Under the pieces are notes generated by a model. It saw nothing but the letters and a program-made list of their open reading frames with translations, searched no databases and had not been told where the DNA came from. Source: Balneola sp. (GTDB lineage: Bacteria; Bacteroidota; Rhodothermia; Balneolales; Balneolaceae). From it: a stretch of DNA of 64,000 bases. The stretch is taken from positions 434,001-498,000 of the forward strand of contig RHLJ01000003.1 in NCBI GenBank assembly GCA_003712055.1, in the 5' to 3' direction. The position numbers were made by a program, and so were the translations under genes. Numbering within the stretch: position 1 is the first letter of the stretch; the number at the start of each line of letters is the position of its first letter. Positions 16,828-53,331 of the stretch are shown piece by piece.

Positions 16828-17934
16828 ATGTCTATCAATAAAGAGCAGATAAAAACAGCGCTTGCTCACGTTCTTCACCCAATCGAAAAACAAGATCTTA
16901 TTTCCCTGGATATGATCCAGGACCTGATTGTTCAGGACAAGTATGTTTCTTTTACCCTGGAAATGCCTGAGCAAAATGAGTCACTAGCTACAGATTTGAA
17001 ACAACGATGTACAGGTGCTATTCACAAATTTATTGATAAGGATGCGGTAGTGGATATTCAGGTTGGTATTAATATTTCCAGGAGAAAACAACCACCAACT
17101 CAAGCACCCCAAGCTCAGCAACAGGTGTTATCCGGTGTGAAGCATATTATTGCTGTGGCTTCCGGAAAAGGAGGGGTGGGAAAATCAACGGTAGCAGTAA
17201 ATATTGCTTCGGCGTTAGCCAGAACAGGTGCTAAAGTTGGATTAATGGATACCGATATCTATGGTCCTAGTATTCCCACTATGTTTGACTTATTCGATCG
17301 TCCAAATGTAACTACTCAAAAAAAGTTGATTCCGCTTGAGAAGTATGGAATCAAAATGGTAAGTATGGGTTTTCTGGTTGATGTTAATCAAGCTATGGTT
17401 TGGCGAGGCCCTATGGCAACAAGTGCTATCAAGCAATTTATGACCGACGTAGAATGGGGAGAATTGGATTATATGGTACTTGACTTACCCCCAGGAACCG
17501 GAGATATACAACTTACCATTGTACAGACTGTTCCGTTAAGTGGTGCTGTTATCGTTTCTACTCCTCAAACGGTTGCACTTGACGACGTGAGAAAAGGGGT
17601 AGCTATGTTTCAAAAAGTGAAGGTTCCAGTTCTTGGAGTGATCGAAAACATGGCTTACTTCATACCTCCTGACATGCCAGAAAAGAAATATCACATTTTT
17701 GGAGAGGGTGGGGCATCCCGTTTAGCTGATGAGCTCGCCGTGCCCGTACTCGGTGAAATTCCACTTGAGCAGCCCGTACGAGAAGCCGGAGATAACGGAG
17801 CTCCAATTGTTATTTCTGATTCGGATTCTAATGCTTCTAAAGAGCTGATTGCTTCTACTGAACGAATGATAGAGCAATTAGAACTCCGTGCTTCGGAAGC
17901 AAAACCAAAGGTGGAAATTACGTTCAGATCTTGA
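16828..17934 (+). CDS. mrp: Mrp/ApbC family iron-sulfur carrier ATPase
   Basis: 368 aa. Residues about 1-85 form a MIP18/DUF59 domain. The deviant P-loop GKGGVGKST is near residue 118, followed by DTDIYGPSIPTMF and DLPPGTGDIQLT. The family binds and delivers Fe-S clusters or regulates their assembly. The CxxC motif that many Mrp proteins carry after ENM(A/S)YF is absent here: the segment reads ENMAYFIPPDMPEKKYHIFG with no Cys. Such variants occur in this group to my knowledge, but cluster binding by the usual mode is then doubtful. Confidence 0.93.
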   Translation: MSINKEQIKTALAHVLHPIEKQDLISLDMIQDLIVQDKYVSFTLEMPEQNESLATDLKQRCTGAIHKFIDKDAVVDIQVGINISRRKQPPTQAPQAQQQVLSGVKHIIAVASGKGGVGKSTVAVNIASALARTGAKVGLMDTDIYGPSIPTMFDLFDRPNVTTQKKLIPLEKYGIKMVSMGFLVDVNQAMVWRGPMATSAIKQFMTDVEWGELDYMVLDLPPGTGDIQLTIVQTVPLSGAVIVSTPQTVALDDVRKGVAMFQKVKVPVLGVIENMAYFIPPDMPEKKYHIFGEGGASRLADELAVPVLGEIPLEQPVREAGDNGAPIVISDSDSNASKELIASTERMIEQLELRASEAKPKVEITFRS

Positions 17935-17940
17935 TCAATT

Positions 17941-18004
17941 GTTCAATGTTCAATGTTCAATGTTCAATGTTCAATGTTCAATGTTCAATGTTCAATTAAG
18001 AATA
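17941..18004. repeat. Eight tandem copies of GTTCAAT plus a TTCAATTAAGAATA tail
   Basis: Directly after the mrp stop codon, the heptamer GTTCAAT is repeated eight times without interruption (17941-17996). The tail TTCAATTAAGAATA (17991-18004) is identical over 14 bases to a stretch at 55571-55584. GATCAAT before the array and ATTGATC after it form a short inverted pair. Copy number is likely variable between strains because the repeats are perfect. Confidence 0.95.
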
Positions 18005-18069
18005 TTGATCATTCATAAACTATTCACATTCCTGAGCTAGCTTGTTTCCAGTTAATAGAGGAGACAATC

Positions 18070-25527: not shown

Positions 25528-25543
25528 TTTATTTAGTTATTTG

Positions 25544-25600
25544 TTATTCGTTAATGGTTATTGGAAAGGTGAATCACCAATAACAATCATTAACGAATAA
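25544..25600. repeat. Intergenic hairpin sharing the GTTAATGGTTATTGG 15-mer
   Basis: The left arm TTATTCGTTAATGGTTATTG plus G (25544-25564) pairs with 25577-25600 (CCAATAACAATCATTAACGA...), with a three-base insertion in the right arm and a 12-base loop. Bases 25550-25564 are identical to the arm at 18524-18538. It lies 16 bp after the stop at 25527. Confidence 0.88.
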
Positions 25601-25621
25601 CCAATCACGCATAAGATTACT

Positions 25622-38809: not shown

Positions 38810-40438
38810 TCACATCCTCTCCGGAGCTGTAATCCCTAAAATAGTTAGTCCATTTTTGAGGACTTGAGCAGTAACACTAGCTAACGCTATTCTTGCTTGC
38901 GCTAATTCTTTTTCTACCCCAATAATTCTACAGTCATGGTAGAAGGTGGTGAATGCTGAAGCAACATCGTTCAGAAAATTAATAACACGATGAGGCTCTT
39001 TTGCATCGGCTGCACTCTTTATTGCTTCGGGGAACTTGAATACGGTTTTAAGAAGTGAAATTTCTGCTTCGTGAGTTAGTAGCTTCAGGTTAGCATCCCC
39101 TGAAAAAGAATACTCTTCTTTGGCTTTCCTAAGAATACTACAAATACGAGCATGGGCATATTGGAGGTAGAATACCGGGTTTTTTTCTCCCGCTTCTTTA
39201 GCCTGGGCAATATCAAATTCTAAATGAGTGTTTGGAGAACGCATCAGGAAAAAGAAGCGGGTAACATCAGAACCTACTTCTTCCATCAATTCATCAAGGG
39301 TTACAAAATTGGCCTTTCTTGTACTCATTTTAAAAGGCTGTCCATCTTTCACAATCGTTACAAACTGGTATACAACTACATCAATCTTCGAAGAGTCATA
39401 ACCGAGTGCTGTTAACCCGGAAAGTACATCAGGGTAAGTAGCAATATGATCTGCGCCGAAAATATCTATACATACATCATAGCCACGATCTAGTTTGTTG
39501 GCATGATATGCTATATCTGGTAACCTGTAGGTCGGTTCTCCTGTGCTTTTTATTAAAACGGTGTCTTTCTCCTTCCCAAACTCGGTAGTTTTAAACCAGG
39601 TCGCACCTTCGGCATCATAAGCGAGTCCTTTCTCCCTTAATTTTGAAACTACCGATTCAATATCTCCACTTTCGTATAAACTATGCTCATTGAAATAAGA
39701 GTCCATATGGATATTCATTCTCTTGAGCGTGCCACTTATATCCGCAAAAATTTCTTCCTCAGCTCTTTCTTTAAAAGGAATCCAATCATCAGCGGTAGAT
39801 AAAACATCACCCTTCTCTTTAATAAGTTCTTTTGCAATATCGACGATGTACTCCCCTTCATAACCTCCTTCAGGAAATTCTGCTTCCCTTCCTAATTCTT
39901 GAAGATATCTAGCCTTAACACTTTGCCCTAATACGCGCATTTGTCGACCAGCATCATTGAAATAATATTCGCGATCTACTTCTGCTCCGGTCCATTCCAT
40001 TAACCGGGCAATAGTATCACCAAGAACCGCATTTCTTCCATGACCAACGGTAAGAGGTCCGGTTGGATTAGCGCTCACAAATTCGATCTGTACTTTTTTC
40101 CCTTCATTTGAATTGGTTTTCCCGAAGTCAGCTCCCTGCTCGATAATTGATTTTAATTGATCGTACAGGTAATTATTGGCATATCTAAAATTGATAAAAC
40201 CGGGGCCAGCAATTTCAATAGAGGATATTTTTCCTACATCATAAGTTATTCCCTCTACCAACTGCTGTGCTATTGCTCTCGGATTATTTCGGAGCGGTTT
40301 GGCTAGCATCATCGCAATATTCGTTGATGCATCTCCATGGCTGGCAACCTTAGGAGCTTCGAGATGGATTTCAGGAATTTCTTCTAATTCAAACTGAGCA
40401 AGTGAATCTTTAACTAGCTGCTCGAGATATTCTTTCAT
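38810..40438 (-). CDS. argS: Arginyl-tRNA synthetase
   Basis: 542 aa. The class I signature HIGH appears as VGHGRN within ANPTGPLTVGHGRNAV (about residues 118-132). KMSKS appears as KMSTR in FKMSTRKANFVTL. The N-terminal Arg-S domain and the C-terminal anticodon-binding DALR domain are both present (residues 425-542). It charges tRNA-Arg. The downstream TonB-domain lipoprotein follows with no gap. Upstream is an inverted-repeat element separating argS from radC. Confidence 0.96.
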   Translation of the reverse strand: MKEYLEQLVKDSLAQFELEEIPEIHLEAPKVASHGDASTNIAMMLAKPLRNNPRAIAQQLVEGITYDVGKISSIEIAGPGFINFRYANNYLYDQLKSIIEQGADFGKTNSNEGKKVQIEFVSANPTGPLTVGHGRNAVLGDTIARLMEWTGAEVDREYYFNDAGRQMRVLGQSVKARYLQELGREAEFPEGGYEGEYIVDIAKELIKEKGDVLSTADDWIPFKERAEEEIFADISGTLKRMNIHMDSYFNEHSLYESGDIESVVSKLREKGLAYDAEGATWFKTTEFGKEKDTVLIKSTGEPTYRLPDIAYHANKLDRGYDVCIDIFGADHIATYPDVLSGLTALGYDSSKIDVVVYQFVTIVKDGQPFKMSTRKANFVTLDELMEEVGSDVTRFFFLMRSPNTHLEFDIAQAKEAGEKNPVFYLQYAHARICSILRKAKEEYSFSGDANLKLLTHEAEISLLKTVFKFPEAIKSAADAKEPHRVINFLNDVASAFTTFYHDCRIIGVEKELAQARIALASVTAQVLKNGLTILGITAPERM

Positions 40439-40480
40439 TCTTTATTCGCTTTCGGATTGGGCGTAAAGATACGCTTGTAT

Positions 40481-40892
40481 CAATTAAGAATTGTACAATT
40501 ATTCAATTATGAATTCTTATATGATGTAATTTTGATTTTACCCAGTATTGCCAAAATCTCTTCTATGTCTTTCAACATCGATTCTGCAATTCTAAGTTCT
40601 AGGCATTGCGTATCTCGCAGCAACCTTAACCAATATTTTGTTTCTCTGGCTTCTTTATATGCAATGCTGAGTTTATGAATAAAATCTTTCTTTGATTGTG
40701 CCCCAACTGCCTCTTCAGAGTTAGCACCAATTGAGGTACCACTCCTGAGCACTTGCTTAGCTATCTCAAAATTTCTCCTCGTTTTACAAAGATGGTTATA
40801 TAAGCCTACTGTTCGAACCGCAAAATCATAGGTCTTGATAAGAATAATATTCTCCTTCATTGCTAATTGAATAATTGTGCAATTCTTAATTG
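40481..40892. mobile_element. Inverted-repeat-bounded four-helix-bundle element between radC and argS
   Basis: The left arm 40481-40508 (CAATTAAGAATTGTACAATT then ATTCAATT) is repeated in inverted form at 40865-40892 with one mismatch in 28 bases. The arms enclose a single small gene almost exactly: its stop TAA (40507-40509) lies at the inner edge of the left arm, and its start codon (40858-40860) abuts the right arm. The radC stop codon lies in the right arm. No target duplication is evident. The arrangement recalls 23S rRNA intervening sequences, whose ends pair to form a stem around a related gene, but this copy is intergenic. Confidence 0.75.
40507..40860 (-). CDS. Four-helix-bundle protein (23S rRNA IVS-protein family)
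   Basis: 117 aa from the ATG at 40860. The longer frame up to 40953 would run through radC and is rejected. The core RRNFEIAKQVLRSGTSIGANSEEAVGAQSKKDFIHKLSIAYKEARETKYWLRLLRD is the classic family sequence (pattern LRSGTSIGANxxEA, then ARETxYWLRLL). These small helical proteins associate as pentamers in known structures and share a fold with the Avd accessory protein of diversity-generating retroelements. Function is unknown. It is enclosed by 28-bp inverted repeats and shares only weak similarity with the copy at 22510. Confidence 0.9.
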   Translation of the reverse strand: MKENIILIKTYDFAVRTVGLYNHLCKTRRNFEIAKQVLRSGTSIGANSEEAVGAQSKKDFIHKLSIAYKEARETKYWLRLLRDTQCLELRIAESMLKDIEEILAILGKIKITSYKNS

Positions 40893-41608
40893 AAATGCCC
40901 CAGGGTACGTAATGAGACGTATTTATAACCAGCAATAATAATATGATCATCAACAGGAATTCCCAGTAACTTCCCTGACTCTATGATCCTCTTTGTAAGA
41001 TTAATATCAGCTTGTGAAGCCCTGTCATGACCGGAAGGATGGTTATGAACAAGAATAATGGAACTTGCTTGATTTATGATTGCCTGCCTCATGATTTCGG
41101 AAGGTTCTACAATGGTTGCATTGCTTCCCCCAGAGCTGATTTTCTGAAAACCGGTAATCACTTTTCGGTTATTTAGGAAAGCCACCATAAATACTTCCTT
41201 GGCCAAGTGGCGAATTTTAGGTCCAAAGAATGCGGCTACATCTTCTGGAGTTTGCACCTGAATTTCTTCTCCCAAATCAGCTACCTGGATTCTTCGAGCC
41301 AGCTCAAATGCGGCTTCAAGTGTTATCGCCTTTACCCGGGCAATACCTGGAATCACTCGCAATTCTTTCCACTCTCTTTTTACCAGATTGTGCAACCCTC
41401 CGAAGTGATCGAGCAAGGCGCGAGCTGTTTCGATGACATTTAGTTTCTTTGTTCCCGTTCTTAATAGAATGGCTAACAATTCTGCATCAGAAAGGGATAT
41501 GGTTCCGCTTTGCATCAGCTTTTCTCGAGGCTGTTCATCCGGCCTCATTTCTTTAACTGTTCGATTTAAAAAATCTTCTGGGGTGAAAGTTTCTATTGTA
41601 AAATTCAT
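40886..41608 (-). CDS. radC: RadC family JAB1/MPN-type protein
   Basis: 240 aa, normal length. The N-terminal helix-hairpin-helix region (about residues 25-100) has LSDAELLAILLRTGTK and RVIPGIARVKA. The JAB domain carries the metal-binding motif HNHPSGHDRASQADI (about 193-207), preceded by Glu in the strand EVFMVAFLNN. The protein is named for a repair phenotype later shown to be misassigned; its real role is unclear. The last residues TLGHFN and the stop TAA are encoded inside the right arm of the neighbouring inverted repeat. Confidence 0.95.
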   Translation of the reverse strand: MNFTIETFTPEDFLNRTVKEMRPDEQPREKLMQSGTISLSDAELLAILLRTGTKKLNVIETARALLDHFGGLHNLVKREWKELRVIPGIARVKAITLEAAFELARRIQVADLGEEIQVQTPEDVAAFFGPKIRHLAKEVFMVAFLNNRKVITGFQKISSGGSNATIVEPSEIMRQAIINQASSIILVHNHPSGHDRASQADINLTKRIIESGKLLGIPVDDHIIIAGYKYVSLRTLGHFN

Positions 41609-52254: not shown

Positions 52255-52294
52255 TTTTTACTTATTACCGCAAAGCGCGCAGAGCTCCGCAGAG

Positions 52295-52435
52295 TTATAG
52301 TTTATTTACTACTCTCCTAAATCCTTCCTTTAAGAGAGTAACATTGAAATTTATTAGCAGTGCTAATTTACATTCTGATAGTTTCAAATATGTTAAAACT
52401 TGTGCCATATGAAGACCGGTTAGCTCCTCAATACC
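52295..52435 (-). pseudogene. C-terminal remnant of a GxxExxY protein gene
   Basis: Minus-strand translation of this stretch gives IEELTGLHMAQVLTYLKL followed by SECKLALLINFNVTLLKEGF and RRVVNKL before a stop at 52295. This matches the conserved C-terminal end of GxxExxY proteins (PD-(D/E)xK-like fold; family pattern LxxxHxAQLLTYLKLxxxxxGLLINFNVxxLKxGxxRxV). Only about 45 of about 125 residues remain. Upstream the match stops just before the composite repeat at 52444, and no start or N-terminal half (with GxxExxY) is found. Confidence 0.85.
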
Positions 52436-53247: not shown

Positions 53248-53252
53248 GAAAA

Positions 53253-53331
53253 GAATTAAGGATTAAAAATTCAAAATTAAAGATTGGTTGAAGCCATTTT
53301 GAATCTTTAATTTTTCATTTTGAATTTCCTA
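53253..53331. repeat. AT-rich imperfect palindrome between ybaB and recR
   Basis: ATTAAAGATT (53277-53286 region) pairs with AATCTTTAAT (53302-53311), and the outer A/T-rich parts (ATTCAAAATT ... ATTTTGAATT) also pair loosely. It starts right after the ybaB stop and ends before the recR start. It may be a bare relative of the other stop-linked palindromes. Confidence 0.65.

Follow-up and report, generated by a model that had tools for sequence, protein, structure and literature searches.

What is a small four-helix-bundle gene doing between radC and argS, closely framed by two nearly perfect inverted repeats? The question arises in a 64,000-nucleotide stretch of Balneola sp. DNA (contig RHLJ01000003.1, positions 434,001 to 498,000; hereafter the window). 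A first-pass annotation of the window, made from the letters alone, had read the repeats and the enclosed gene as an element resembling the intervening sequences (IVSs) of rRNA genes, which may move or be processed as RNA. We find that the best explanation, to which we assign a probability of about 0.62, is a small insertion element in which one gene of the S23p/IVP family lies between inverted arrays of degenerate 7-bp units (heptads), and whose protein would recognize its own heptads and pair the two ends. The radC-argS element was inserted within this bacterial family. Elements of the same design are widespread, sit in tight gene junctions, and come and go between congeners; together they make up a large and apparently undescribed family.

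A gene closely framed by paired arms

The left arm (40480–40509) and the right arm (40864–40893) are inverted copies matching at 29 of 30 bases. Their 28-bp core matches at 27 of 28, the same count as in the first-pass annotation, and the pair can be extended to 35 nt at 91% match (to 40514 on the left and from 40859 on the right). No other inverted pair in the window with a spacing of 200–500 nt scores as high: these arms reach 55, the runner-up 29, and 30 first-order shuffled windows gave no more than 28. The 30-bp arm sequence has no other match in the organism's own genome. Both arms are built of AATT units of 7–8 nt, which in the left arm read AATTAAG, AATTGTAC, AATTATTC and AATTATG.

Between the arms there is a single open reading frame (ORF), matching PF05635 only. 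It lies on the minus strand at 40507–40860 and encodes 117 amino acids. The proposed assignment to the four-helix-bundle family is borne out by matches to PF05635 (E 2e-24) and TIGR02436 (E 2e-28), and the closest solved structure is 2RLD (E 1e-26), which has five chains. The tight packing is also as first described: the TAA stop codon of the gene (40507–40509) is inside the left arm, its ATG start codon (40860–40858) abuts the right arm, and the TAA stop codon of the upstream neighbor radC (40886–40888; gene at 40886–41608, minus strand) is inside the right arm. The downstream neighbor, argS, lies on the minus strand at 38810–40438. Read as RNA, the minus strand has a predicted stem of −112 kcal/mol (z = −5.2) in a fold closed by the paired arms, so that the transcript may well be able to form the long stem-loop that had been suggested.

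Paired heptad arms recur across the gene family

For 112 distinct IVP-family genes from across the phylum, with 96 ORFs in the same loci as controls, the left flank was scored for pairing against the right flank, and the null distribution came from flanks swapped between elements. Paired ends exceeded the 95% level of the swap null in 71% of the IVP genes vs. 9% of the control ORFs, and the 99% level in 55% vs. 0%. A further, independent sample of 76 loci in named genomes gave 70% paired, with a lag-7 autocorrelation of 0.61, and 29 loci in six genomes outside the phylum sample gave 79% and 0.65. All seven IVP genes of one Gracilibacteria genome were paired, as were all five of two Desulfobacterota genomes.

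Structurally, the arms consist of degenerate 7-bp units repeated in tandem. In the 112-gene set their autocorrelation was 0.57 at lag 7 and 0.56 at lag 14, compared with 0.25 in genes and distant flanks; over all sets the values at these two lags ranged from 0.56 to 0.68, against the same 0.25. The repeat unit (AAGTCTG, GTTGAAA, CAGAATT, AGCTNNN, GAACATT, etc.) differs in nearly every element and is complementary within each. The expectation that the arms would be conserved around homologous genes therefore held for their complementarity, in the 71% given above, and failed for their sequence, since nearly every element has a unit of its own. Identity between the two arms of an element was 86% in register, 61–63% when slid by 7 or 14 positions, and ~25% otherwise: the two arms are true register copies. 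Of 42 sites, 67% had a left arm that began no more than 15 nt from the upstream stop codon; over the same sites, the median distance from the end of the right arm to the next start codon was 14 nt. Among elements at different sites, arm type correlated with protein similarity (rho = 0.22, p = 5e-4).

The Balneola genome itself holds six PF05635 genes. One of them (L005) has a 26-bp arm pair of different sequence, tight around the gene. The second IVP-family gene of the window (L007; 22546–22845, minus strand) is without clear arms. At some loci (L170, L105, L117 and L098) several IVP genes lie within a few kilobases of each other; those that were read differ in arm unit, which suggests repeated insertion near each other.

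Filled and empty sites among relatives

The first-pass annotation had proposed comparing the radC-argS junction across relatives, and the comparison revealed both states. In eleven genomes of the same family, radC and argS are separated by a co-oriented IVP gene; in three other genomes of the family and in other families of the order, the two genes are directly adjacent, mostly 20–100 bp and up to 180 bp apart. The gene is thus common at this junction, but its arms are paired there, and what had been named as evidence against an element, a gene fixed at this site without paired ends, was not found. Across the filled junctions, arms from the same genome paired with a mean score of 45 and arms from different genomes with a mean score of 25 (permutation p = 5e-5).

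The protein tree of these junction genes has two deep clades, one in genomes G000, G001, G004, G008, G011, G012, G014 and G019, the other in G002, G013 and G018, so that the congeners G000 and G002 hold different occupants. In G018 the right flank of the occupant keeps a right arm that belongs to the other clade and then continues into the common flank (38 of 40 bases identical to G011); this relic arm is the footprint of the replacement of an earlier occupant. One junction has received different elements. In elements of this design generally, the two arms evolve in step and stay alike at the DNA level.

Elsewhere, a comparison with the joined flanks of G002 elements showed several of these loci to be empty in G000 and G001, and two or three sites that hold an element in G018 lack it in some other genomes of that genus. 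The empty sites lack both the gene and the arms. At one of them, in a neighbor genome (G098), the stop and start codons of the flanking genes overlap (AAGTCATTATGAAAC); in the filled counterpart, a new stop codon for the upstream gene lies inside the left arm. Recurrence of paired ends around homologous genes, together with the existence of empty and filled sites, supports the reading as an element. The IVP copy number within the genus of G018 ranges from 1 to 16. One member, G102, has a single IVP gene where its congeners have 11–16, a natural case of loss or non-invasion.

A second, unrelated gene family has the same layout. Of 26 GxxExxY genes, which belong to the PD-(D/E)XK family, 15 had inverted ends, with 9–10-bp repeats such as CACAGAGTTA (loci read: L021, L022, and the PF13366 loci L133–L162). 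Genome G007 carries such a gene, whose own ends pair weakly, at the radC-argS junction, and in G012 a GxxExxY gene and an IVP gene adjoin each other there. The window also contains a decayed GxxExxY element at 52267–52432, a gene fragment (35.5 bits) beside the 10-bp repeats CGCAAAGCG, CGCAGAGCTC and CGCAGAGTTA.

Heptad arrays without an IVP gene

Two inverted heptad hairpins in the window have no gene: one of GTTATTN type at 25530–25608, right after a gene end, and one of AATTAAAG type at 53250–53325, between two gene ends. About ten TTCAATG units in direct orientation, with no inverted partner, form an array right at a gene end (17930–18008); the arms of another locus, L008, in the same genome have this unit too. 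Further gene-less inverted hairpins were seen at gene ends in L349 (8255–8449) and L177 (638–774). All of these gene-less hairpins may be derivatives or precursors of the elements, in the manner of miniature inverted-repeat transposable elements (MITEs).

Within 250 bp of IVP genes, the density of period-7 arrays was ten times that found elsewhere. In the samples examined, gene-less hairpins and lone arrays were almost confined to IVP-bearing genomes: no period-7 array was found in 800 kb from two genomes without IVP genes, in a small comparison (two such genomes vs. three IVP-rich ones, one of which also lacked arrays) that is confounded by G+C content. The AGTATYN heptad triple occurred in 22 of 116 IVP-bearing genomes vs. 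0 of 32 others (p = 0.004), a difference to which phylogeny and genome size may contribute as confounders; the reversed motif used as a control, itself a heptad, occurred in 13 of 116 vs. 1 of 32. Most AGTATYN arrays stand alone.

Selection on the protein and on the arms

To our knowledge, S23p/IVP proteins have no established function. Ortholog pairs with estimable dS gave ratios of nonsynonymous to synonymous substitution (dN/dS) of 0.02–0.11: the protein is under strong purifying selection and thus does something. At orthologous sites, the arms could still be aligned and had remained complementary even where dS exceeded 1, both arms having changed. Clustering of sites by flank similarity merged some unrelated loci, including one 25-member cluster, so these pooled counts on ortholog arms, and those given below, are only indicative.

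Could the arms be kept alike because they pair in the transcript, where RNase III would cut and release the element from the radC-argS mRNA, perhaps allowing it to spread through RNA? A mechanism of this kind was suggested at first, and it has the strong predicted stem in its favor, the same design as in IVSs that RNase III cuts (PMC4990558), and a gene mostly co-oriented with collinear neighbors (49:12, 80% co-directional). Yet selection for a stem in the sense transcript would enrich G-U mismatches, and no such enrichment was seen. Read in the sense transcript, the arm mismatches comprised 108 G-U, 165 A-C and 406 transversions, and the G-U share of 16% equals that expected by chance; among single arm changes between orthologs, 32 were G-U and 67 A-C (indicative counts, as above). 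The pairing therefore looks like DNA identity, and wobble counts lend no support to selection on a sense-RNA stem. We also do not claim selection on an antisense RNA: there were 114 A-A mismatches vs. 73 U-U, and the A-C excess fits the general A-richness of the sense strand. The orientation bias was likewise dropped as a sign of insertion through RNA, since ordinary genes are equally co-oriented (173:47) and 12 of 61 elements between collinear genes are antisense. Judging from these base counts, RNA pairing does not seem to be what keeps the arms alike, a result compatible with cutting by RNase III, and we regard an RNA-level IVS as an unlikely account of the locus. The suggestion that the element moves or is processed at the RNA level is thus not supported.

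In two other accounts the arms are not the ends of a mobile unit. Were the protein a regulator binding operator-like arrays, both those beside its own gene and the solitary ones, one would expect solitary arrays, a heptad triple found only in IVP-bearing genomes, and arm types that track protein types, all of which we observed. Simple binding, however, has no need of inverted copies exact in register (86% identity vs. 61% at a shift of 7), nor does it account for empty sites that lack arms and gene alike, and we consider such a regulator improbable. The remaining account, an ordinary host gene in a repeat-prone spot, with heptads that slippage and template switching produce and that have no bearing on the protein, would fit the strong purifying selection, the long-term synteny and the existence of arrays that stand alone. 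It is hard to reconcile with control ORFs that lack arms, the tie of arms to the IVP family, the tenfold density of heptads around IVP genes, the empty sites in congeners and the distantly related occupants of one junction; we think it very unlikely.

Relation to known systems

Kinship of the window element with the 23S rRNA IVSs, as first proposed, is supported by a common protein family, a common stem design and the heptads of the Coxiella arm (PMC4990558). The Coxiella 23S IVS contains an S23p ORF, RNase III cuts its 28-bp terminal stem, and its 5' arm has two to three heptameric repeats, GACAGAT, whose number varies by strain (PMC4990558). The IVSs of Coxiella and Leptospira share with the window element the protein family and near-perfect terminal pairing of ~28 bp around a single ORF in ~430 nt. 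Unlike them, the window element lies between radC and argS rather than in rRNA, and it has no wobble signature. The Coxiella ORF is reported to decay, whereas the IVP gene here is under purifying selection. The organism's own 23S rRNA gene has no insertion, for which reason we rejected an origin from an IVS of its own rRNA, and none of the surveyed IVP loci was inside 23S.

Tandem, intergenic 7-bp repeats are known from several bacteria: GGGAATC in Xanthomonas, often in inverted pairs, TAACTGA in Beggiatoaceae, and the heptanucleotides of cyanobacteria (PMC4692102, PMC4679880). The accessible portions of these reports describe a sporadic spread by a mechanism not known (PMC4679880) and name no partner protein gene, whereas the arrays here are tied to IVP genes. 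The P6b stem of the Nostoc trnL intron is likewise formed by complementary heptads of two motif classes (PMC4476775), but it lies within a group I intron and has no protein gene. Avd of diversity-generating retroelements is a homologous four-helix-bundle protein, although the NCBIfam Avd model matched the window protein weakly (21.8 bits; cut-off 80) and no reverse transcriptase, template or variable repeat was found at the locus, where the neighbors are radC and argS. Insertion sequences and MITEs resemble the present elements in having inverted ends around one gene, gene-less versions and empty sites; here, in contrast, there is no transposase, no target duplication was seen at the sites read, and the heptad ends vary by element. 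Viral contigs yielded no relatives of the window protein. In the open-access literature we found no description of paired heptad arms around IVP genes.

Discussion

How might an insertion element with an end-pairing protein work? Xcc0516, a solved relative, is a pentameric ring of four-helix bundles, according to its citation in PMC4990558. The IVP protein would bind its own heptads, which we predict are probably its target, and a ring of this kind could join the two ends so that the unit is protected, paired or mobilized. Likeness of the arms may be restored when one arm serves as the template for the other, through hairpin template switching or gene conversion, and selection for binding would also keep them alike. 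Movement would probably rely on host enzymes, because we know of no catalytic motif in the IVP protein. The rRNA IVSs would be elements of this kind that inserted into 23S rRNA genes.

Several observations weigh against an insertion element. At the sites read, where flanks are only ~66–86% identical, no target-site duplication was visible, and no transposition intermediate was seen there. Most close relatives occupy the same site, and movement must therefore be rare. About 30% of IVP genes, including two of the six in the Balneola genome, show no convincing arms, and many heptad arrays have no IVP gene as a neighbor.

An excess of heptameric repeats in bacteria has reportedly been recognized since 2007, without a cause being offered. 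We tentatively propose, while thinking it somewhat doubtful in this full extent, that the surplus heptads are largely the ends and footprints of one element class in which each four-helix-bundle protein lineage would recognize and maintain a 7-bp repeat of its own, with the rRNA IVSs as members and the GxxExxY elements as a parallel class. In the open-access literature, the link between rRNA IVSs and intergenic elements via heptads has not been seen joined up before. It ties heptad repeats and S23p/IVP proteins together by a simple signature that can be checked in any genome, and it places the rRNA IVSs inside a much larger family of intergenic elements. Such a family could explain the source of many unexplained seven-base repeats in bacterial genomes.
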